From Candidatus Azobacteroides sp. (GTDB lineage Bacteria > Bacteroidota > Bacteroidia > Bacteroidales > Azobacteroidaceae), in NCBI GenBank assembly GCA_009783445.1, contig WRFY01000123.1, positions 1-63,023 on the forward strand: a stretch of DNA of 63,023 nt. The letters are read 5' to 3'. Shown piece after piece: positions 6,464 through 49,830 of the stretch; the first letter of the stretch is position 1; each line of letters starts with the position of its first letter. Position numbers and translations under genes: made by a program. The notes beneath the pieces are model-generated. The model ran no database searches, had not been told where the DNA came from, and saw only the letters and a program-made list of their open reading frames with translations.

Positions 6464-7273
6464 ATGGAAACAAAAAAAACAAAAAGAGAGGGTAAAAAAT
6501 CTCGCGGTGTTTCAGCATTCGTTGTTATTATTATTGCGTTAATTTTGGCTGAATCATTTTTCTATTTCGTTTTAGGAAATCCTTCCAACTTTGAAGGAAA
6601 CGATCCTGCCAATCATCCACACAATTTATTAGGGACTATGTTTAAAGGGGGATTCGTTGTACCGATCATCTTAACTTTGTTGTTAACAGTTATCATTCTA
6701 AGCGTGGAACGCTTTTTCGCCCTTTCTAAAGCAAAAGGAAAAGGAAATTTAATCAATTTCGTCTATGATGTAAAAAATGAATTGAGAAAAAACAATATTT
6801 CAGCTGCTGAATCGCTTTGCGGAAAGCAAAAAGGCTCTGTAGCGGCTATTGTTGACGCTGGATTAAAAAAATATAAGGAAATGGAGACGGTCAGCATTCC
6901 CAAAGAACAAAAGATTGAGGAAATCAAAGCTGAAATAGAAGAAGCTACGGCGCTTGAATTGCCGTCGATGCAACAAAATCTTCCGATCATTGCTACGATT
7001 TCTACGTTGGGTACGTTAATGGGGTTGTTTGGAACCGTATTGGGGATGATCAAATCATTCCAAGCGTTAGGTCAAGCCGGAGCGGTCGACTCGGTGGCTC
7101 TTTCTGTGGGTATTTCAGAAGCTCTTGTAAATACGGCAACAGGGATTGCAACGGGCGCATTGGCTATTATCAGCTATTCCTATTTCAGCGGTAAAATAGA
7201 TAACATGACTTATGCCATTGACGAAATGGGATTTGCGCTTACTCAAACTTATGCCGAAACACATAATTCATAA
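6464..7273 (+). CDS. exbB: MotA/TolQ/ExbB proton-channel family protein
   Basis: ExbB forms the pentameric inner-membrane proton channel that powers TonB. The 269-aa product has a basic N-terminus, an extra membrane segment (about residues 18-38), then the family's segments near residues 64-86, 172-195 and 217-240. The long cytoplasmic stretch between has the usual AALELPSMQQNLPIIATISTLG region. Helix 3 residues (GTLMGLFGTVLGM) are those lining the channel in ExbB. The extra N-terminal helix is common in Bacteroidota homologues. It heads a cluster with two exbD and two tonB genes. Confidence 0.93.
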   Translation: METKKTKREGKKSRGVSAFVVIIIALILAESFFYFVLGNPSNFEGNDPANHPHNLLGTMFKGGFVVPIILTLLLTVIILSVERFFALSKAKGKGNLINFVYDVKNELRKNNISAAESLCGKQKGSVAAIVDAGLKKYKEMETVSIPKEQKIEEIKAEIEEATALELPSMQQNLPIIATISTLGTLMGLFGTVLGMIKSFQALGQAGAVDSVALSVGISEALVNTATGIATGALAIISYSYFSGKIDNMTYAIDEMGFALTQTYAETHNS

Positions 7274-7283
7274 GTAAAGTTTT

Positions 7284-7940
7284 ATGGCAAAAGTAAAAGT
7301 AAAGAAGCAAAGTACATTCATCGACATGACAGCGATGAGTGACGTGACTGTTCTTTTGCTTACATTTTTTATGTTGACATCGACCTTTATCTCAAAAGAG
7401 CCAATACAGGTAACCACCCCCAGTTCGGTTTCCGAAATCAAAATCCCGGAAACAAACTTGATGACCATTCTGGTTGACGAACATGGGAAAATCTTTCTGA
7501 GTTTGGATTTTCAGCAAGAGCTGGTGATGAAAACATTGCAGGATGTAGGCGCAGACTACGGCTATACGTTTACTCCTAAACAATACGATAGTTTCAAAAA
7601 ATTGAAATCGTTTGGACTCCCCATTAATTCCATGGCGGCATTTCTCGATTTGCCTGTCGATAAACAAGATGCCTATCTGACGGATGTGGCCAACGCGAGA
7701 GTGGGAATTCCTACCGATTCGGTCGAAGTAAGAGACGGTTTAGGAGTTATTTCGAAGGATAATGAATTCAAACGGTGGGTAAGCCATGCTACATCCAACG
7801 ACGATGCTTTGCAAATAGCGATCAAAGCCGATAGGAAAACCAATTATCCGGTAGTTAAAAAAGTGATAGACGATTTGAGGGATATGCGGAAAAACCGTTA
7901 TCTCTTGATCACGAATTTGAAAACGGCTTCCAGTGAGTGA
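7284..7940 (+). CDS. exbD: ExbD/TolR family biopolymer transport protein, copy 1
   Basis: The 218-aa product has one N-terminal membrane helix that begins DMTAMSDVTVLLLTFFML. Asp20 corresponds to the essential protonatable Asp of ExbD. The rest is a periplasmic domain, larger than that of E. coli ExbD (141 aa), with inserted helical sequence around residues 90-150. It lies 10 nt after exbB and 32 nt before the second exbD. The two paralogues could form a mixed dimer in the ExbB pore, which is inference. Confidence 0.9.
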   Translation: MAKVKVKKQSTFIDMTAMSDVTVLLLTFFMLTSTFISKEPIQVTTPSSVSEIKIPETNLMTILVDEHGKIFLSLDFQQELVMKTLQDVGADYGYTFTPKQYDSFKKLKSFGLPINSMAAFLDLPVDKQDAYLTDVANARVGIPTDSVEVRDGLGVISKDNEFKRWVSHATSNDDALQIAIKADRKTNYPVVKKVIDDLRDMRKNRYLLITNLKTASSE

Positions 7941-7972
7941 AGTTAAGTCATTAACCTATAAAAAAGAAAAAA

Positions 7973-8686
7973 ATGGCTGAAATACAAACGAACGATCATA
8001 ATGAAGGTGGAAAAAATAAACAGAAGAAGCAGCAGCTGCGCGTAGACTTTACCCCGATGGTAGACATGAACATGTTGCTGATTACATTCTTTATGTTTTG
8101 TACTACGCTTTTGAAGCCGCAAACGATGAATATTAACATGCCTACTAAGGACAAGCCGGTAGTGGATAGTGGAAACGATGTCCGAGCATCTGGCGCTGTT
8201 ACGGTTATACTGGCGGGTAATGATGAAATCTACTATTACTTAGGGATGCCCGCAGAAGACGGTTCTTCGTATGAAGATGCGAGCTTTTTGGTACAATCCT
8301 CTTATGCTCCGGATGGTTTTAGACAGGTATTGCTGAAAAAGAATGCAGGAACGTATGAACAAATTCAGGATTTGAAAGTCCAATTGCAGCGGGGAGAAAT
8401 CAACGATTCGATATTCAGGAAAATGTCGGCGGATATACAAGACAAAGCAATGAAAGAATTGAAGATTGCTCCTACGGTGATGATCAAACCTACGGATTTG
8501 TCGACCTATAAAAACTTGGTGGATGTATTAGACGAGATGTTGATTTGCAACATTGGCGCTTATGCAGTAATTGATATGAGTGATGGCGACCGCTATCTGC
8601 TGTACAAGAAAACAGGAAACAATGCTTATCTTACTCCTCAACAATTGGCACAGGGTAGCTCGGGAGTCAAAGGGAAAAAGAAATAA
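7973..8686 (+). CDS. exbD: ExbD/TolR family biopolymer transport protein, copy 2
   Basis: This is a 237-aa protein with a basic, polar N-terminus of about 25 residues, then the membrane helix DFTPMVDMNMLLITFFMF with the conserved Asp31. The periplasmic part carries a large insert (about residues 90-160) before the ExbD-like end. Sequence similarity to copy 1 is low outside the helix, so this is an old duplication. It sits between the first exbD and the first tonB in one operon. Confidence 0.9.
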   Translation: MAEIQTNDHNEGGKNKQKKQQLRVDFTPMVDMNMLLITFFMFCTTLLKPQTMNINMPTKDKPVVDSGNDVRASGAVTVILAGNDEIYYYLGMPAEDGSSYEDASFLVQSSYAPDGFRQVLLKKNAGTYEQIQDLKVQLQRGEINDSIFRKMSADIQDKAMKELKIAPTVMIKPTDLSTYKNLVDVLDEMLICNIGAYAVIDMSDGDRYLLYKKTGNNAYLTPQQLAQGSSGVKGKKK

Positions 8687-40078: not shown

Positions 40079-41050
40079 ATGGCAGACACATTTATTGAAC
40101 CCATTGAACCTTTTGGCCTTTTTTCTAAAAACAGAAAAAAGTCTTTGTTTTCCAAAATTGGGGTAGTAGGAGCTGGAAGAGATGGACGAAATATCATTCG
40201 TTTGACTTCTTCCGCAGGATTGGAAGTCGTTTTCATAGAGGCTTCCCAAGAACGAATCGACTTCGCGATCGCACGCATCAGCGAAGGATTGGATAGTCGA
40301 ATCGAAAACTGGGGTTTGACTCCGGGTGAAAAAAGAGCGATCTTGGGACGAATCAATGGTTCGTTGTCATACGAAGATTTGAAGGATTGCGATTTTGTGA
40401 TCGAGTGTATTCGTTACGACACCCAAACAGGAGAGCGCGATACTGAATTACGCAAAAAAGCTTTCAAAGAAATTGAAAAATTCGTTTCGCCTGAAGCGAT
40501 CATTGCAACCAATACAACGACTGTGATTATCAGCGAATTGGCTTCCGAATTGCAATACAAAGAACGTTGCGTCAGTTTGCACTTTCCTATTGCTCATTCC
40601 GAAGCGAAAATGATAGAAATCGTGAAAAGTATTTATACGTCGGAAGAGGTATACAACAAAGTGCTTCTGTTGGCCAAACTCATCAAATATGAAACAATCA
40701 ATGTCCATGAAAGCAATGGTTTGGTAAGCATGCGTTTGATGGTTGTCTTGCTGAACGAAGCCTGTCAAATGGTATTGGAAAATGTGGCGTCGATGGAATC
40801 GATCGACCATTTAACAGAAATCGTATACGGAATGCGTTTAGGAATTTTCAAAATGGCAGATATCGTTGGAATCGAAAAAATTGTCCGCCTGATGGAAGAT
40901 ATGTTTAACGAATATGGCGATAAAAAATATAAACCCTCTCCTCTAATTTGGCGTCTTTACCGCACTCAGCAATTGGGAACGCGCTCAGGCAAAGGCTTCT
41001 TTGTATACGATAAAGGAAAAATAACTGGTGTTAATTCATTTTTTGCATGA
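40079..41050 (+). CDS. 3-hydroxyacyl-CoA (3-hydroxybutyryl-CoA) dehydrogenase
   Basis: The 323-aa protein has a Rossmann domain (IGVVGAGRDGRNII, GxGxxG type), the NTTTVIISELA stretch and the catalytic His of LHFPIAHSEA, where most relatives read HFFNP. The C-terminal helical domain ends with LGTRSGKGFFVYDKG, typical of Hbd. It would reduce acetoacetyl-CoA or act on similar 3-hydroxyacyl-CoA. The ATG at 40079 is chosen because the open frame upstream overlaps pta out of frame. Its stop overlaps ackA (ATGA). I recall this gene between pta and ackA in other Bacteroidales, but its role there is not clear. Confidence 0.82.
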   Translation: MADTFIEPIEPFGLFSKNRKKSLFSKIGVVGAGRDGRNIIRLTSSAGLEVVFIEASQERIDFAIARISEGLDSRIENWGLTPGEKRAILGRINGSLSYEDLKDCDFVIECIRYDTQTGERDTELRKKAFKEIEKFVSPEAIIATNTTTVIISELASELQYKERCVSLHFPIAHSEAKMIEIVKSIYTSEEVYNKVLLLAKLIKYETINVHESNGLVSMRLMVVLLNEACQMVLENVASMESIDHLTEIVYGMRLGIFKMADIVGIEKIVRLMEDMFNEYGDKKYKPSPLIWRLYRTQQLGTRSGKGFFVYDKGKITGVNSFFA

Positions 41051-42450: not shown

Positions 42451-42458
42451 TACTTTTG
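42451..42458 (+). promoter_or_regulatory. -7 element for the dikinase-like gene
   Basis: TACTTTTG matches TAnnTTTG, 54 nt before the ATG. The leader can fold (42467-42471 with 42478-42482, closed by GGCG/CGCC at 42460-42463 and 42488-42491). Confidence 0.5.
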
Positions 42459-42512: not shown

Positions 42513-45491
42513 ATGAAACATCTTACAGATATAAAACAATTGGTTTTAAAAGACACTTCTTTTGCCAATTTAATGCAAAAACGGATACTCAACGTTTTAC
42601 TGATTGCTACTCGTTACGACGCTTTTATGTTGGAAAATGACGGACGGATTGAAGAACAAATTTTCAACGAATATACTTCGCTTAGTTTGCGCTATCCTCC
42701 GAGGTTTACCCAGGTTACGCGAGAAAAGGAGGCTTTGGCGGCGATGGAGCAAACGCACTTCAATTTAGTGATTTGCATGCCTAATATGGACAATGTAGAT
42801 ACTTTTGCTACCGCCAACCATATCAAATCGTTTTATCCGGATGTCCCTATCGTTGTCCTGACCCCTTTTTCGCGGGAAGTGACCAAGCGAATACTGAACG
42901 AAGACTTGTCGTCGATCGAGTATGTTTTTTCATGGTTGGGAAATTCCGATTTGTTGCTGGCCATTATTAAGTTGATGGAAGACCGGATGAATATAGACGA
43001 CGATATTGCTTCTGTGGGCGTGCAAACAATCCTGCTGGTGGAAGACTCCATCCGTTTTTATTCCTCTGTTTTGCCCCACCTATATAAATTTGTCTTGCAA
43101 CAATCGACGGAATTTGCCAAAGAAGCCCTGAACGCCCATCAACAAACGCTTCGGATGCGGGGACGTCCTAAAATTCTTTTGGCGCGTTCTTACGAAGAAG
43201 CCGAAAATTTGTACGACAAATACAAAGACCACATGTTGGGAATTGTCTGCGACATGAGTTTTTCTCGTCAAGGAAAAAAAGATTATTATGCAGGATATAA
43301 ATTTGGATGCAAGGTGAGGAACGAAGATCGATTTGTTCCCATCATTTTCGATTCGTCCGAATCGAGCAATAAATTGTATGCCGACGAACTCAATTGCAGT
43401 TTTATAGATAAAAACTCCAAAACTTTTCCGCAAGATTTACGCAAAGAAATCATGAACAATTTCGGATTTGGCGATTTTGTGATTCTCAATCCTAAAACCA
43501 AAACCGAAGTAACGCGGATTTGTTCCCTGAAAGATTTGCAAAAGAAAATATTTTATATACCCGACGATTCGTTGATTTATCATTTGTCGCACAATCATTT
43601 TTCCCGTTTTTTTTATTCGCGCGCGATTTTTCCGATTGCCGAATTTCTAAAACGAATTGACGTTTCGGACTATACCGATATGGACGAACCGCGCCAGATC
43701 ATTTTTGACGCCATTGTAAGTTACCGCAGGGTGAAAAATTCGGGGGTCATAGCCGTTTTTAAAAGAGACCGCTTCGATGAATATTCCAATTTTGCGCGAA
43801 TCGGCGAAGAATCCTTGGGTGGAAAAGGTCGGGGATTGGCTTTTATGGGACAAATGATCAAGCGGAAATACAGCTATTTAGAACAACAATTTCCTCATGC
43901 AATGATCCGGATTCCTAAAACGGTGGTTTTGGCGAGCGATATTTTTGATGAATTCATGGAATCCAATGATTTATACGAAATCGCTTTGCAGGACTTGCCG
44001 GATGAAGAAATTTTGAATCATTTTCTGCAAGCCGAGCTTCCGGAACGATTGATCGAAGATTTGATCGCTTTTTCCGAAGCAATCAACGCGCCTATCGCCG
44101 TGCGTTCTTCCAGCTTGTTGGAAGACTCTCATTACCAGCCGTTTGCTGGAATTTACAATACCTACATGATTCCAAAATTCAGGGATCAATATGAGATGCT
44201 GGTAAAAATCAGCAGAGCAATCAAAGGCGTGTACGCTTCCGTTTTTTTTAAAGATAGCAAAGCCTATATGACTGCAACTCAAAATCTTATTGATCAGGAA
44301 AAAATGGCGATTGTCTTGCAGGAAACGATTGGACAAGAATACGGCGATCGTTTTTATCCAACTATTTCGGGCGTTGCCCGTTCTTTGAATTTTTATCCGG
44401 TGGGAAACGAAAAACCGGAAGACGGAATAGCCAATGTAGCTTTGGGTTTGGGAAAATACATTATGGACGGAGGAATGACCTTGCGTTTTTCTCCTCTCCA
44501 TCCTCACAATATATTACAAACCAGTACATTGGATTTTGCTTTGAAAGAAACGCAAACTCGGTTCTATGCCTTGAATCTGAAATCGCTGACTTCCGAACAG
44601 TTTTCGATCAATGATGCATACAATCTCCTGAAATTGCCGGTGAAGGATGCAGAAAACGACGGTACGCTTCAATACCTTTCTTCTACTTACGACGCTGAAG
44701 ATCAGGTGTTGCGGGATGGTTTTTATCCGGGTCGAAATCGGAAAGTCATTACTTTTTCAGGAGTATTGCAATCCAACGTTTTTCCTTTGGCCGAAATTTT
44801 GGATTACATTCTGAAAGAAGGTCAGGAAGAAATGGGACGTCCAGTAGAAATTGAATTTGCAGTCAATCTGGGGAAGAACGAAGAGAAAGAAGTCGAAGGT
44901 ACGTTCTATCTTTTGCAAATCCGCCCAATTGTAGACTCCAGAGAAGTGATATCAGAAGATTTAAGCTGCATACAGGAAGAGGAAACTTTGCTGCATTCCA
45001 AGCATGTATTAGGGAACGGCATAATCAACGATGTTTTTGATATCATTTATGTAAAAACAGCGGGATTCAACGCGGCCAACAATCCTTTGATTGCCGTCGA
45101 GATTGAAAAACTGAACAAACAACTGACGGAAGAAGGAAAAACATATATTCTGGTAGGACCCGGACGGTGGGGAAGCAGCGATCCGTGGCTGGGCATTCCT
45201 GTGAAGTGGCCGCATATATCCAGTGCGCGCCTCATTGTGGAGTCGGATTTGGAAAATTACCGGATTGAACCGAGCCAGGGTACGCATTTTTTCCAAAATT
45301 TGACCTCTTTCGGAGTAGGGTACTTTACCATCCATCCTTATCTGAACGAAGGAGTTTTTGACGAAGCCTTTTTGAATTCTCAGCCGGCAGTGATGGAAAC
45401 CTCTTTCGTGCGCCATGTTCGTTTTGAAAAACCGATGATCATCAAAATCGATACGAAAAAAAATATTGGAGTTGTGATGAAACCTCTGTAA
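42513..45491 (+). CDS. Two-receiver, PEP/pyruvate-binding (PPDK_N-like ATP-grasp) protein
   Basis: The 992-aa protein has three parts. Residues about 25-155 and 170-305 are receiver-like domains. The second keeps the phosphorylation residues (Glu177-Asp178, Asp247, Ser281/282, Lys300); the first has lost the Asp (ICMPNMDN). Residues about 425-807 match the ATP-binding domain of pyruvate phosphate dikinase (GGKGRG at 436-441, AVRSSS at 529-534, EIEFAV, LQIRPI). The phosphohistidine and PEP-binding domains of true dikinases are absent. The last 185 residues, with GPGRWGSSDPWLG near 882-894, I cannot assign. I recall similar proteins in other Bacteroidota, without a known function. It follows the acetyl-phosphate genes directly. 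Confidence 0.8.
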   Translation: MKHLTDIKQLVLKDTSFANLMQKRILNVLLIATRYDAFMLENDGRIEEQIFNEYTSLSLRYPPRFTQVTREKEALAAMEQTHFNLVICMPNMDNVDTFATANHIKSFYPDVPIVVLTPFSREVTKRILNEDLSSIEYVFSWLGNSDLLLAIIKLMEDRMNIDDDIASVGVQTILLVEDSIRFYSSVLPHLYKFVLQQSTEFAKEALNAHQQTLRMRGRPKILLARSYEEAENLYDKYKDHMLGIVCDMSFSRQGKKDYYAGYKFGCKVRNEDRFVPIIFDSSESSNKLYADELNCSFIDKNSKTFPQDLRKEIMNNFGFGDFVILNPKTKTEVTRICSLKDLQKKIFYIPDDSLIYHLSHNHFSRFFYSRAIFPIAEFLKRIDVSDYTDMDEPRQIIFDAIVSYRRVKNSGVIAVFKRDRFDEYSNFARIGEESLGGKGRGLAFMGQMIKRKYSYLEQQFPHAMIRIPKTVVLASDIFDEFMESNDLYEIALQDLPDEEILNHFLQAELPERLIEDLIAFSEAINAPIAVRSSSLLEDSHYQPFAGIYNTYMIPKFRDQYEMLVKISRAIKGVYASVFFKDSKAYMTATQNLIDQEKMAIVLQETIGQEYGDRFYPTISGVARSLNFYPVGNEKPEDGIANVALGLGKYIMDGGMTLRFSPLHPHNILQTSTLDFALKETQTRFYALNLKSLTSEQFSINDAYNLLKLPVKDAENDGTLQYLSSTYDAEDQVLRDGFYPGRNRKVITFSGVLQSNVFPLAEILDYILKEGQEEMGRPVEIEFAVNLGKNEEKEVEGTFYLLQIRPIVDSREVISEDLSCIQEEETLLHSKHVLGNGIINDVFDIIYVKTAGFNAANNPLIAVEIEKLNKQLTEEGKTYILVGPGRWGSSDPWLGIPVKWPHISSARLIVESDLENYRIEPSQGTHFFQNLTSFGVGYFTIHPYLNEGVFDEAFLNSQPAVMETSFVRHVRFEKPMIIKIDTKKNIGVVMKPL

Positions 45492-45950
45492 AGAGCGGCT
45501 TGAAAATTCGTCAACAGGCTTCATTCCATAAAAACGCGATTGTCATGAACCAATCGTGCTTTTCGTTTGTTTTAAAAATGAAAAGCAAAACGGCAGATTT
45601 TTCACAAAAGAAACCTTTTCCAACCATTGAAATAACCCCCAAGAATTGCAAGAACAAAAAGATATTGATGTTTCTCATTGTTTATCAACAATTTTGAATC
45701 AATCATTATATTTGACACGAAAGGGAACTTTTTTAAAAAGATTCCTTCACATTAGGTTGTCGTCCCTGCTTGCCTTGGTGATCGAGCGGTAGGATTTCCT
45801 CTCTATTACAAGACTTGTCTCCTTATCGACGTTCCTTTGTGCGAAGCGGTTCAAGTGGAGGAATCTTTTCCCGTATGAGGCCATTCTTTGATAATTACTT
45901 CTTTATTGTATTTTTTTTCATGCAACATTCAATTATTTTTATTCCTTTAC
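45492..45950. other. Long gap with an 11-bp inverted repeat enclosing 112 nt (45736-45869)
   Basis: No gene is supported between the dikinase-like gene and the acyl-CoA synthetase. The exact arms 45736-45746 and 45859-45869 (AAAAGATTCCT and its complement) bound a 134-nt unit. Inside, GCGAAGCGG near 45841 followed by GGAGGAATCTTTT recalls the short GAAGAATC-type intergenic repeats that are frequent in Bacteroidota. It may be a degenerate member or a structured RNA. Confidence 0.45.
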
Positions 45951-45980
45951 TTTGATAATCCATATTTTTTGTTACTTTTG
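45951..45980 (+). promoter_or_regulatory. Promoter of the acyl-CoA synthetase gene
   Basis: TTTG (45951-45954), an 18-nt spacer and TACTTTTG (45973-45980) fit the consensus, with a slightly short spacer. The start would be near 45986, giving a leader of about 95 nt. Confidence 0.62.
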
Positions 45981-45983
45981 CAC

Positions 45984-46030
45984 AAAGTACATCAAAGTGT
46001 GTTATGAATCGAGCATGTACTTTATAACAC
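45984..46030 (+). promoter_or_regulatory. Two interleaved inverted repeats at the start of the acyl-CoA synthetase leader
   Basis: AAAGTACAT (45984-45992) is complementary to ATGTACTTT (46015-46023), and GTGTTAT (45999-46005) to ATAACAC (46024-46030). The pairs alternate (a, b, a', b'), so the two hairpins cannot form together as simple stems. They could be alternative RNA folds, a pseudoknot, or two overlapping operator palindromes placed at the transcription start. Confidence 0.65.
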
Positions 46031-46081
46031 TCAAAAAAATACACATGCAAGTTCCATACGATCGTTTAAAAACAAGTAGAT

Positions 46082-47737
46082 ATGAAAAAGGAAAATTTTA
46101 TTAAGCTTTATGAGGAAAGTTTTAGAATCAATTTTATTTACCCAGCTTTAACTGATTATGGGACAACCACATCCTATACCTATGGAGAATTAGCAAAAGA
46201 GATCGAAAAATTACATATTCTTTTTAGTAAATGTAATATCCAAGAGGGAGATAAAATTGCATTGGTGGGAAAAAACACGACGCAATGGTGTATAGCCTAT
46301 TTGTCTATTATCACTTACGGGGCAGTGGTTGTTCCGATTCTGCAAGATTTCAATTCCAAAGATATTCATCACATTATCAACCATTCGGAATCGATGCTTC
46401 TTTTTATTTCCGATGCTATTTGGGTCAATGTTGCAGACGGCGATTTACCTTTGTTGAGAGGCGCTTTTTCTCTTAACGACTGGAAAGTACTCTACCAAAA
46501 GGAAGGAGAAAGAATCGACGAGTTGATTCCCAATTTAGAGGCCTTATTTCAGGAAAAATATCCGGAGGGGTTTGGACCTCAACATATTCAATACATAGAT
46601 GTATCTAATGACAAGGTAAGGGTACTGAATTATACTTCAGGTACTACGGGATTCAGCAAAGGGGTTATGATTACGGGCAACAATCTATCGGGCAACATGA
46701 CTTTTGCTCATGTGACTTTCAATTTGAAACAGAAAGACGCGATGTTGTCTTTTCTTCCATTAGCGCATACGTACGGAGCTGCCTTCGAATTTTTGTATGC
46801 TTTAAGCGAAGGAACCCATGTGACATTATTAGGAAAAACGCCCTCGCCCAAAATTTTGGTGAAAGCATTCGAAGAGGTTAGGCCTACTTTGGTTATTGCA
46901 GTTCCTTTGATTTTGGAGAAAATACATAAAAAGATGATTTTGCCTGCCTTGGCGAAAAAAAACATTCGGTGGGCGTTGAAAGCGTCTTTTTTGAGAAAAC
47001 TGATTTATGCACAAATACACAAAAAACTGTTGAAAGCTTTTGGAGGTAATTTTAAACAAATCATCATTGGAGGCGCTCCCTTGAATGCAGAAGTGGAAGA
47101 CTTTCTGCTCAAAATTCATTTTCCAATATCGGTTGGTTATGGAATGACCGAATGCGCTCCGCTGATCAGTTTCTCGTTATGCAAGGATTACATTCCTCAT
47201 TCCTGTGGTAAAATATTGCCTTGCATGGAAGTACGAATTGATTCCGAAGACCCATATACCCTTGCGGGAGAAATTCAAGTCAAAGGGCAAAATGTAATGG
47301 CCGGCTATTATAAAAATGAGGAAGCCACTCGAAATGCATTCACCGAAGACGGGTGGCTGAGAACCGGCGATCTGGGAACCATCGACCGAAACTATAATAT
47401 ATTTATCCGCGGGCGTTCCAAAAACATGATTTTAAGCGCCAGCGGGCAAAACATCTACCCCGAGGAAATCGAAAACAAGCTAAACAATCTTCCGTTTGTA
47501 TTGGAAAGCGTAGTTGTGGATCGAAAAGGTAGATTGATCGCCTTGGTTTATCCAGATTACGATGCCCTCGCTTCGGAGGGAGTTGCTCAAGCCGATTTAG
47601 ACAAAATCATGCATCAAAACAAGGAAACATTGAATCACATGGTGGCCTCGTATGAAAAAATTGCAGCGATAGAATTGCAGCCCCACGAATTCGAAAAAAC
47701 GCCTAAAAAAAGCATCAAACGGTTTTTATATCATTAA
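46082..47737 (+). CDS. Long-chain acyl-CoA synthetase (AMP-forming)
   Basis: The enzyme activates a carboxylic acid, probably a fatty acid, through an acyl-AMP to acyl-CoA. The 551-aa product has the AMP-binding signature YTSGTTGFSKGVM, the VGYGMTECAPLIS motif, DGWLRTGDLG and the catalytic Lys near the end (EKTPKKSIKRFL). It resembles long-chain fatty acid ligases of this phylum and is shorter than FadD-type acetyl-CoA synthetases. It is a single gene with its own promoter and unusual leader. The substrate is inferred from family resemblance only. Confidence 0.87.
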   Translation: MKKENFIKLYEESFRINFIYPALTDYGTTTSYTYGELAKEIEKLHILFSKCNIQEGDKIALVGKNTTQWCIAYLSIITYGAVVVPILQDFNSKDIHHIINHSESMLLFISDAIWVNVADGDLPLLRGAFSLNDWKVLYQKEGERIDELIPNLEALFQEKYPEGFGPQHIQYIDVSNDKVRVLNYTSGTTGFSKGVMITGNNLSGNMTFAHVTFNLKQKDAMLSFLPLAHTYGAAFEFLYALSEGTHVTLLGKTPSPKILVKAFEEVRPTLVIAVPLILEKIHKKMILPALAKKNIRWALKASFLRKLIYAQIHKKLLKAFGGNFKQIIIGGAPLNAEVEDFLLKIHFPISVGYGMTECAPLISFSLCKDYIPHSCGKILPCMEVRIDSEDPYTLAGEIQVKGQNVMAGYYKNEEATRNAFTEDGWLRTGDLGTIDRNYNIFIRGRSKNMILSASGQNIYPEEIENKLNNLPFVLESVVVDRKGRLIALVYPDYDALASEGVAQADLDKIMHQNKETLNHMVASYEKIAAIELQPHEFEKTPKKSIKRFLYH

Positions 47738-47774: not shown

Positions 47775-48329
47775 TCAAGATATTTCTTCGAGAGTGCGGG
47801 CTGTGACTGTAAATTGTGATAGGTAGCCTTTACCGGAATTTTTGAGTTGTTCCCTTAGTTTTTGAATATCGTTTTTCATTATTTCGGCGGCGCGACCCGT
47901 TTCTCTTTGTTTTTTAACCCATGCGCTGTCGATGCAAGGAGTATGGTCGATGGGACAAAGCAACAGATTGGCTTTTTCCATATTCGTGATTTTCTCGCCG
48001 GTTATTTTTCTTTCCAATAGAAATCCCTCAATGGCAATGTTTTTCCCGTTATACGATTTATCGAAAGCGGCATTGGAATCCTGCGAGACAACTTTAATAA
48101 TAAGACCTTGAGAAGTTTGCAATTTCATTTTTTTCCCATTCGCACTGCAAACGTGCCGTATTTTACCGCTGAGCCGAATGTTCTGATTGATATATTTTTC
48201 AACCTCGTGGATTAAGTCCGGTTCTGAATGGACCATTTCATTTGCCAACACTTTTTCTGCAGATTTTACTTCAAGAGCAACAAGCGCTCCTCCAATTGTT
48301 AACAATTTCAAAAAATTACGGCGTTTCAT
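47775..48329 (-). CDS. Tat-signal protein with an OB-fold-like region
   Basis: The 184-aa protein begins with a twin-arginine signal (MKRRNFLKLLTIGGALVAL), so it should be exported folded. The middle (about residues 50-125: YINQNIRLSGKIRHVCSANGKKMKL, then NIAIEGFLLERKITG) resembles the small OB-fold domains, with one VC and a later LLCPIDHTPC pair of cysteines that could bind a metal. Function is unknown. The frame is open to 48374, but the promoter at 48355-48385 lies between that ATG and this one, which decides the start. A GAGGC/GCCTC hairpin at 47753-47765 separates it from the convergent synthetase gene. Confidence 0.75.
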   Translation of the reverse strand: MKRRNFLKLLTIGGALVALEVKSAEKVLANEMVHSEPDLIHEVEKYINQNIRLSGKIRHVCSANGKKMKLQTSQGLIIKVVSQDSNAAFDKSYNGKNIAIEGFLLERKITGEKITNMEKANLLLCPIDHTPCIDSAWVKKQRETGRAAEIMKNDIQKLREQLKNSGKGYLSQFTVTARTLEEIS

Positions 48330-48354
48330 ACAAAATAAAAATTTAAATATCGGA

Positions 48355-48385
48355 CAAAGGTATTGATAATGCATAAGTAATACAA
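48355..48385 (-). promoter_or_regulatory. Promoter of the Tat-signal protein gene
   Basis: On the minus strand TTG (48383-48385), a 20-nt spacer and TACCTTTG (48355-48362) match the consensus exactly, 26 nt before the chosen ATG. Confidence 0.75.
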
Positions 48386-48495: not shown

Positions 48496-49830
48496 ATGAA
48501 AACAGAACTCATTCTTCAGGCTTTAGAAGCCAAACATCCCGGCGAACTCGAATATTTGCAAGCCGTGAAGGAAGTATTATGTTCTATAGAAGACGTATAT
48601 AATGAACATCCGGAGTTTGAACAAGTTGCTATTATCGAACGATTGGTAGAACCGGATCGTATTTTTACTTTTAAAGTTCCCTGGATAGACGATAATGGGA
48701 AAGTGCAAGTCAATTTGGGCTACAGAGTACAATTCAATAACGCTATTGGGCCTTACAAAGGCGGCATTCGTTTCCATGCTTCTGTTACTTTATCCTCGCT
48801 CAAATTTTTAGGATTTGAACAAACCTTTAAAAATGCCTTGACCACCCTTCCCATGGGAGGCGGCAAGGGAGGTTCTGATTTCAGTATTCGGGGAAAATCC
48901 AATGCCGAAGTGATGCGTTTTAGCCAGGCGTTTATATTAGAATTATGGAGGCATTTGGGTCCGGACACAGACGTTCCCGCAGGAGATATAGGCGTGGGTG
49001 CGCGCGAAATTGGTTACATGTATGGCATGTATAAAAAATTGGCGCGAGAAAACACGGGTACCTTCACCGGAAAAGGATTGGATTTCGGCGGTTCGCTGAT
49101 TCGTCCCGAAGCTACCGGTTTCGGAGGAATCTATTTTGTGGTCAACATGTTGAAAGAAAAAGGGATGGAAATCAAAGACAAAACGATTGCCATATCTGGT
49201 TTCGGCAACGTAGCATGGGGAGCCGCTCTGAAAGCAAGCGAATTGGGCGGTAAAGTTGTGACTATTTCAGGACCAGATGGTTATATATATGATCCGAATG
49301 GTATATCGGGAGAAAAAATCGAATACATGTTGGACCTTCGAGCTTCTGGCGACGACATCGTCGCACCTTATGCCGAAAAATACGGCGTGGAATTTTTCCC
49401 GGGCAAACGTCCTTGGGAACAAAAAGTAGATATTGCTTTGCCTTGCGCTATTCAAAACGAATTGGATGAACGCGATGCGCAAACGTTGATTCGCAATGGA
49501 GTAACCTGTGTGGCTGAAATCTCTAATATGGGATGTACTGCCGAAGCGGTAGATTTGTTGATCGAAAAAGGCATCCTGTTCGCTCCCGGAAAGGCCGCCA
49601 ATGCAGGCGGCGTGGCTACCTCCGGTCTCGAAATGACTCAAAATGCCATGCATCTTCAATGGACGACAGAAGAAGTTGACGCCAAATTGCATCAGATAAT
49701 GAATGCTATTCATGAACAATGCGTCATTTATGGAAAGCAAATCGATGGTTATATCAATTATGTAAAGGGGGCAAATATTGCCGGATTTATGAAAGTAGCA
49801 AGAGCAATGATGGCCCAGGGAATTGTATAA
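48496..49830 (+). CDS. gdhA: NADP-type glutamate dehydrogenase
   Basis: The enzyme forms glutamate from 2-oxoglutarate and ammonium. The 444-aa hexameric-type protein has KGGIRFHASVTLSSLKFLGFEQTFKNAL in parts, then PMGGGKGGSDF with the catalytic Lys, PAGDIGVGAREIGYMYG (Asp that helps catalysis), and the Rossmann motif ISGFGNVAWGAA. Length (about 445) fits the hexameric bacterial class, which in this phylum is usually NADPH-linked; the cofactor is inference. Confidence 0.95.
   Translation: MKTELILQALEAKHPGELEYLQAVKEVLCSIEDVYNEHPEFEQVAIIERLVEPDRIFTFKVPWIDDNGKVQVNLGYRVQFNNAIGPYKGGIRFHASVTLSSLKFLGFEQTFKNALTTLPMGGGKGGSDFSIRGKSNAEVMRFSQAFILELWRHLGPDTDVPAGDIGVGAREIGYMYGMYKKLARENTGTFTGKGLDFGGSLIRPEATGFGGIYFVVNMLKEKGMEIKDKTIAISGFGNVAWGAALKASELGGKVVTISGPDGYIYDPNGISGEKIEYMLDLRASGDDIVAPYAEKYGVEFFPGKRPWEQKVDIALPCAIQNELDERDAQTLIRNGVTCVAEISNMGCTAEAVDLLIEKGILFAPGKAANAGGVATSGLEMTQNAMHLQWTTEEVDAKLHQIMNAIHEQCVIYGKQIDGYINYVKGANIAGFMKVARAMMAQGIV

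Follow-up and report, generated by a model that had tools for sequence, protein, structure and literature searches.

Candidatus Azobacteroides sp. carries, on contig WRFY01000123.1, a gene whose product joins two receiver (REC) folds to PPDK_N, the ATP-binding domain of pyruvate phosphate dikinase (PPDK). The stretch, 63,023 nucleotides long, is called the window below. What does this REC-PPDK protein do, and for which partner? The initial annotation, which placed the gene beside pta and ackA, proposed a metabolic sensor or a phosphotransferase governed by acetyl phosphate. We find that the recurrent neighbour of the REC-PPDK gene is a glutamate dehydrogenase (GDH) gene, not pta/ackA. That REC-PPDK often stands beside this gene makes it a good candidate to serve as a dedicated on/off switch for GDH, a key nitrogen enzyme. 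We put at about one half the probability that the protein is a signalling phosphotransferase dedicated to GDH.

Genomic association with glutamate dehydrogenase

The two genes at the centre of this analysis are the following.

42513..45491, + strand: whole REC-PPDK gene, coding for REC1 (dead), REC2 (intact), a helical domain, the PPDK_N ATP-grasp domain and a C-terminal putative swivelling phosphohistidine domain
48496..49830, + strand: glutamate dehydrogenase, the proposed partner; PRK14030 match above cut-off; adjoins the REC-PPDK gene in many relatives

The REC-PPDK open reading frame (ORF, 42513-45491) starts with ATG, is 2.98 kb long and encodes 992 amino acids (aa); it is present in a single copy in its own genome. 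A scan of a genome collection returned at least 578 related stretches, from which 80 relatives were kept, mostly from Dysgonomonadaceae, Tannerellaceae, Parabacteroides and Dysgonomonas. Since all 80 cover residues 6-988 or more, with an identity of about 65-80%, the gene is genuine. Its large and uncharacterised product is widespread in Bacteroidales, with a match in 132 of the 149 genomes of a Bacteroidales sample (two matches, with E 1.5e-4 and 3.2e-5, being weak), and is present in related bacteria. In a sample of the whole phylum, 79 of 296 genomes had a match of any kind, many of them receiver-only, and 40 genomes carried 50 full-length copies.

GDH lies 3 kb downstream of the REC-PPDK gene in the window, on the same strand. 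Across the phylum sample, proximity was counted over 72 dikinase-core matches, excluding weak receiver-only ones. GDH was found within 1.5 kb of at least 39 of the 50 full-length copies, at least 9 of 11 short copies (~585 aa) and at least 7 of 11 copies of a third form (mostly ~1060 aa); by a rough estimate, chance would produce such proximity with a probability below 1%. Among the close relatives, GDH was within 5 kb at 24 of the 40 loci having at least 5 kb of flank on both sides, and within 1.5 kb at 31 of the 60 having flanks of at least 1.5 kb. It was also found at 12 of the 25 congener loci, whose flanks reached up to 1.5 kb. In what is probably the genus Bacteroides, the gene was within 3.1 kb of GDH in 16 of 18 genomes (regions chosen by GDH, from 41 genomes). 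The Parabacteroides distasonis copy, WP_041525632.1, sits 195 bp from gdhA, with a second GDH 3.5 kb away on the other side.

Copies of several architectures adjoin GDHs of two types, a bacterial NADP type and an archaeal-like type. Eight neighbouring dehydrogenases were examined: four exceed the cut-off of a bacterial GDH model, and the best match of the other four is the archaeal GdhA model, which they reach with 373-565 bits for a cut-off of 750; glutamate is thus their likely, not certain, substrate. No GDH residue cleanly marked the linked enzymes when 47 linked NADP-type and 20 linked archaeal-like GDHs were compared with 20 unlinked ones; the comparison showed only drift in the N-terminal part.

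The two genes also tend to be present together. GDH was detected at E < 1e-100 in 40/40 genomes with full-length copies versus 56/256 of the others, in counts uncorrected for ancestry. Of 12 congeners devoid of the REC-PPDK gene, ten were also devoid of GDH, which was a fragment in one other and intact in the last; all 6 carriers that were tested, out of 25 congener carriers besides the genome of the window, had GDH. Three of the ten double-lacking congeners (G385, G557 and G553) are at least 93% complete. Two of these, G385 (1.2 Mb) and G557 (1.0 Mb), are reduced genomes that are 99% complete. Finally, a mirror-tree comparison of REC-PPDK with GDH gave r 0.47 (n 67), for a maximum of 0.17 over 500 permutations.

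The link to GDH has its limits. In Bacteroidales, own genome excluded, at least 34 of 107 type-1 copies and at least 8 of 42 type-2 copies had a listed GDH no more than 5 kb away, both being lower bounds. Five Bacteroidales genomes, three of them 97% complete, had a REC-PPDK copy but no GDH match. The seven other double absences among congeners may be assembly gaps, which would remove neighbouring genes jointly. The neighbourhood might be due just to shared transcription or to an ancient gene order on the chromosome, and the gene would have no functional connection with GDH. Many Bacteroidales copies are indeed unlinked to GDH, and the mirror-tree signal could come from shared ancestry. We nevertheless judge this explanation improbable, given the several architectures found beside two GDH types, the repeated tandem units described below, and the joint absence of both genes from near-complete reduced congeners.

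The pta/ackA neighbourhood

Both pta and ackA are upstream of the REC-PPDK gene in the window, as annotated, but no such neighbourhood was found elsewhere. Neither pta, nor ackA, nor the 3-hydroxyacyl-CoA dehydrogenase gene that lies between them (40079-41050) was present on any locus of the 80 relatives (in 40 of them, the flanks reached at least 5 kb on both sides), and ackA was on none of the 25 congener loci, a set overlapping the 80. On these loci the gene does not stay beside pta-ackA, and the acetyl-phosphate link was rejected as the main context. The 272-bp gap between ackA and the REC-PPDK gene contains a promoter-like octamer:

42451..42458, + strand: putative promoter element TACTTTTG, matching the Bacteroidota -7 consensus TAnnTTTG

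This site suggests that the REC-PPDK gene has its own, putative promoter. Receivers can be phosphorylated by acetyl phosphate in vitro, and a sensor or phosphotransferase coupled to the upstream pta and ackA is conceivable on that ground. We consider it very improbable in view of the absence of these genes from the relatives' loci and of the gap with its own promoter-like site. The initial observation was confirmed in part, and its interpretation was supported in part.

Other genes surround the locus. An AMP-binding ligase gene (46082-47737) may form a local acyl-CoA cluster with the 3-hydroxyacyl-CoA dehydrogenase gene. Between the ligase and GDH genes, a gene at 47775-48374 on the minus strand has a DUF4920 match just under the cut-off. 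The 590-bp gap that follows the REC-PPDK gene (45492-46081) contains no ORF of 80 aa or more and no Rfam match. An Rfam scan of the window found three tRNAs, none close to the REC-PPDK gene, and nothing else.

Conserved residues of the receivers and of the dikinase core

The protein is divided as follows.

42585..42995, + strand: REC1, residues 25-161; pseudo-receiver without conserved phospho-Asp, Trp141 replacing Lys
43017..43478, + strand: REC2, residues 169-322; E177/D178 pocket, Asp247 (43251-43253), S281, K300
43479..43748, + strand: helical region, residues 323-412; largely conserved SxxxH, S364; weak DUF5752 signal below its cut-off
43809..44960, + strand: PPDK_N ATP-grasp, residues 433-816; invariant G436 G437 K438, R531 S532 S533, E537 D538, E781, Q802
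44964..45488, + strand: C-terminal domain, residues 818-992; GPGRWGSSD, E910, PSQGTHFF; H925 at 45285-45287

Residue conservation was read from 135 aligned copies, namely the window's, 9 hand-picked ones among the 80 close relatives, and 125 taken out of fetched regions. These last had to show more than 500 aligned core residues, and split or cut copies (L158 and L198, for example) were excluded. Receiver residues were read from the 104 rows with more than 850 aligned positions, the window's own included. Many of the fetched regions were picked for carrying both paralogues or both GDHs, so counts drawn from them are not random samples. The structure alignments comprised 65 of 81 sequences for the first and 28 for the second.

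Two receiver domains had been announced, and two receiver folds were matched by VIA-align, at residues about 22-168 and 169-323. The first, however, is a degenerate receiver by its residues: columns near the expected phospho-Asp contain no conserved Asp, and Trp141 occupies the Lys position in 104/104 copies. REC2, by contrast, is intact in its residues and corresponds to the annotated receiver with all phosphorylation residues. The acidic pair, the Asp, the Ser/Thr and the Lys are all present; E177, D247, S281 and K300 are kept in all 104 copies, and D178 in 103. Asp247, which the initial annotation had singled out, is thus present in every aligned homologue. The sole Pfam Response_reg match scored 27.6 bits against a cut-off of 30.2 and was located in the dead REC1. 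In the helical region, H357 is kept in 102 copies and S364 in 104.

The PPDK_N assignment was borne out by a match at residues 433-816 (E 2.5e-44). G436, G437, K438, R531, E537, D538, E781 and Q802 are invariant in 135/135 copies, receiver-less ones included, and R804 is found in 120 of them, with Lys at that position in the other 15. The C-terminal motif GPGRWGSSDPWLG, first noticed for its conserved look, proved real; all 135 copies keep G884-G887, D890 and G894 unchanged, and H925 likewise. A search of solved structures by sequence with the window protein found weak ATP-grasp and receiver matches alone (E 0.05-0.25), and a search of a defence library gave no match.

The same genomic link to GDH would be expected of a non-catalytic, chaperone-like activator, which would bind GDH as an allosteric switch, with ATP and REC2 phosphorylation altering its conformation. 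It would fit the in-trans activation reportedly seen in E. coli (see below). The conservation of H925, R531, E781 and Q802 in all 135 copies speaks against it, since such catalytic-type residues suggest phosphotransfer over plain binding, and we regard a pure activator as unlikely.

A possible phosphohistidine domain at the C-terminus

True dikinases carry phosphohistidine and phosphoenolpyruvate (PEP) domains, both of which had been declared missing here. By sequence profile, neither PF00391 (PEP-utilizers) nor the C-terminal PEP/pyruvate-binding barrel matched the REC-PPDK protein, which stops at residue 992. The single PF00391 match of its own genome is a separate PPDK-like frame of 915 aa (G000:C50). 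The PPDK_N match and the RefSeq annotation of WP_041525632.1, which reads only 'PEP/pyruvate-binding domain-containing protein', might suggest that the protein has diverged from a PEP synthase or a PPDK and goes on forming PEP or pyruvate; this is extremely improbable in the face of the absent barrel match and of this separate frame.

The absence of a phosphohistidine domain may be wrong by fold. When the C-terminal model was compared with known folds, the first seven matches listed were six PPDK/rifampin phosphotransferase (RPH) entries and one pyruvate kinase C-terminal region. Alignments of the full model to 1dik, 5hv3 and 5hv2 would, judging by where they end, put H925 on residue 455 or 825. 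A Foldseek comparison of the C-terminal model with PDB structures and with viral models returned nothing at E 0.001 among the families listed. Four hhalign profile comparisons of the C-terminus with the phosphohistidine domain gave probabilities of 0.1-0.4%, and a proof by sequence was dropped. A local match of the core to the PpsA profile reached 97.6%, confined to residues 434-655, and forced global alignment to PpsA did not place H925 on the PpsA His. The shallow PPDK profile yielded 3.8% even for the ATP-grasp part, which makes the profile test of the C-terminus weak in both directions. Judging from the models, the C-terminus may be most like a strongly diverged, putative swivelling phosphohistidine domain.

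Architectures found beside glutamate dehydrogenase

Several architectures were found beside GDH. Next to REC-REC-core, these are a core of ~585 aa on its own, long forms devoid of receivers, and a second paralogue of Bacteroidales, ~1160 aa in length. This paralogue has an added N-terminal region, which we read as GAF-like, no Pfam name being attached to it, and at 9 fetched loci it stands next to a second GDH. In L168-L178, a ~1060-aa gene adjoins a short (~585-aa) copy in 11/11 fetched loci, with GDH upstream or near in 10. These loci are clusters in which an archaeal-like GDH gene stands with a core-only protein of ~585 aa and a relative of ~1065 aa. Two long relatives, L168 (1066 aa) and L187 (931 aa), both beside gdh, end with an NTP_transf_2 domain (28.9 and 30 bits for a cut-off of 21), and a third one examined, L179 (782 aa), has no nucleotidyltransferase domain. 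The nucleotidyltransferase of L168 is a possible second GDH modification. Genomes from another class of the phylum contain two consecutive gdh-REC-PPDK units (L155, L159, L161, L162 and L166).

In a plasmid collection, the full core was found in three Bacteroidales records, and a partial match of 26% identity in 15 Deinococcus records. The distant match in Deinococcus radiodurans plasmid records is the ATP-grasp part, annotated as PEP/pyruvate-binding or PEP synthase-related.

The protein could also be a metabolic enzyme. Its ATP-grasp and phosphohistidine domains would phosphorylate some small molecule in the pathway of glutamate, 2-oxoglutarate and ammonia, much like rifampin phosphotransferase with its drug, GDH then being a pathway neighbour and not the target. 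RPH, the top match of both the ATP-grasp and the C-terminal parts, performs such chemistry, and core-only copies free of receivers do occur beside GDH. The fusions to receivers and to a nucleotidyltransferase are, on the other hand, regulatory in style, and the 585-aa form has no obvious substrate domain. We see a metabolic role as a minor possibility.

Proposed function

The gene is linked to GDH on genomes, and conservation covers the active-site residues in REC2 and in the PPDK_N ATP-grasp as well as a C-terminal set that includes H925. For a signalling phosphotransferase dedicated to GDH, we infer the phosphorylation steps, their direction, the target residue, the kinase and the effect on GDH. 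A phosphorylation signal would reach Asp247 of REC2, and phosphorylated REC2 would control the ATP-grasp domain. In the manner of PPDK/PEP synthase, the latter would use ATP to phosphorylate His925, located on the diverged swivelling domain. With no PEP/pyruvate barrel present, the phosphoryl group would go to a different acceptor, most likely GDH itself, whose activity would be changed by the transfer.

A broader scheme is more doubtful, and we offer it tentatively. Bacteroidota, and perhaps groups beyond them, might modify GDH covalently through a family built on the dikinase core, the phosphoryl group passing from ATP to His925 of the cryptic domain, then to GDH or to the protein's own Asp247 in a self-powered phosphorelay. 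The nucleotidyltransferase sisters in the gdh operon would be the GDH counterpart of GlnE/GlnD control, and the family would include the trans-acting gene of 1996 presented hereafter.

GDH is described as a main ammonia-assimilation enzyme of Bacteroides (PMC4539542), which are among the dominant gut bacteria. The REC-PPDK family is a precise candidate with named residues, and thereby renders the question of GDH control testable; if the proposal is true, a dikinase core has been reused for enzyme regulation. Baggio and Morrison reportedly described, in 1996, one or more trans-acting genes downstream of gdhA of B. thetaiotaomicron, a 3-kb downstream segment being said to restore activity in trans in E. 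coli. The REC-PPDK gene, 2.98 kb long, may be this gene. BT_1971 of B. thetaiotaomicron has been published as a catalase. In L192, a probable Bacteroides, the gene order is GDH, REC-PPDK, catalase-like, GDH, malic-enzyme-like, the catalase and malic enzyme being named from their best NCBIfam match, below cut-off. The catalase-like gene (7157-8641), between REC-PPDK and the second GDH, agrees with the published identity of BT_1971. REC-PPDK is downstream of the second GDH, beyond the catalase, and upstream and divergent relative to the first. This order, together with the identity of BT_1971, suggests BT_1972 as the candidate orthologue.

Comparison with known systems

The combination itself is already in print: REC joined to pyruvate phosphate dikinase was called 'Bacteroides-like' and found in three Heimdallarchaeota (PMC5847659, J Bacteriol 2018). 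The window protein has the same domain combination, REC joined to PPDK_N; the passages of that paper on the combination carry no GDH link, C-terminal assignment or role. In the open-licence literature, judged mostly by title and start of abstract, we found neither a REC-PPDK function or GDH link nor an identified factor behind the GDH activity of B. fragilis. On that activity, a report by Yamamoto is said to have appeared in 1987. As far as this literature was searched, the following are new: the association with GDH across architectures, the pair of one dead and one intact receiver, the probable presence of a cryptic phosphohistidine domain, and the sisters that bear a nucleotidyltransferase.

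With PPDK and PEP synthase, the window protein shares the PPDK_N ATP-grasp core and possibly a swivelling His domain after it. It differs from them by PSQGTHFF in place of a TSH/TCH motif, by the missing PEP/pyruvate barrel and by the receivers in front. RPH (5hv1, 5fbu), which has a drug-binding domain between its ATP and His domains, is without receivers, unlike the window protein. GlnE and GlnD are nucleotidyltransferases that control glutamine synthetase and PII. The window protein has no nucleotidyltransferase domain, and no homology with them is claimed; the likeness is that of a dedicated modifier of a nitrogen-assimilation enzyme, and two relatives beside gdh do carry NTP_transf_2.
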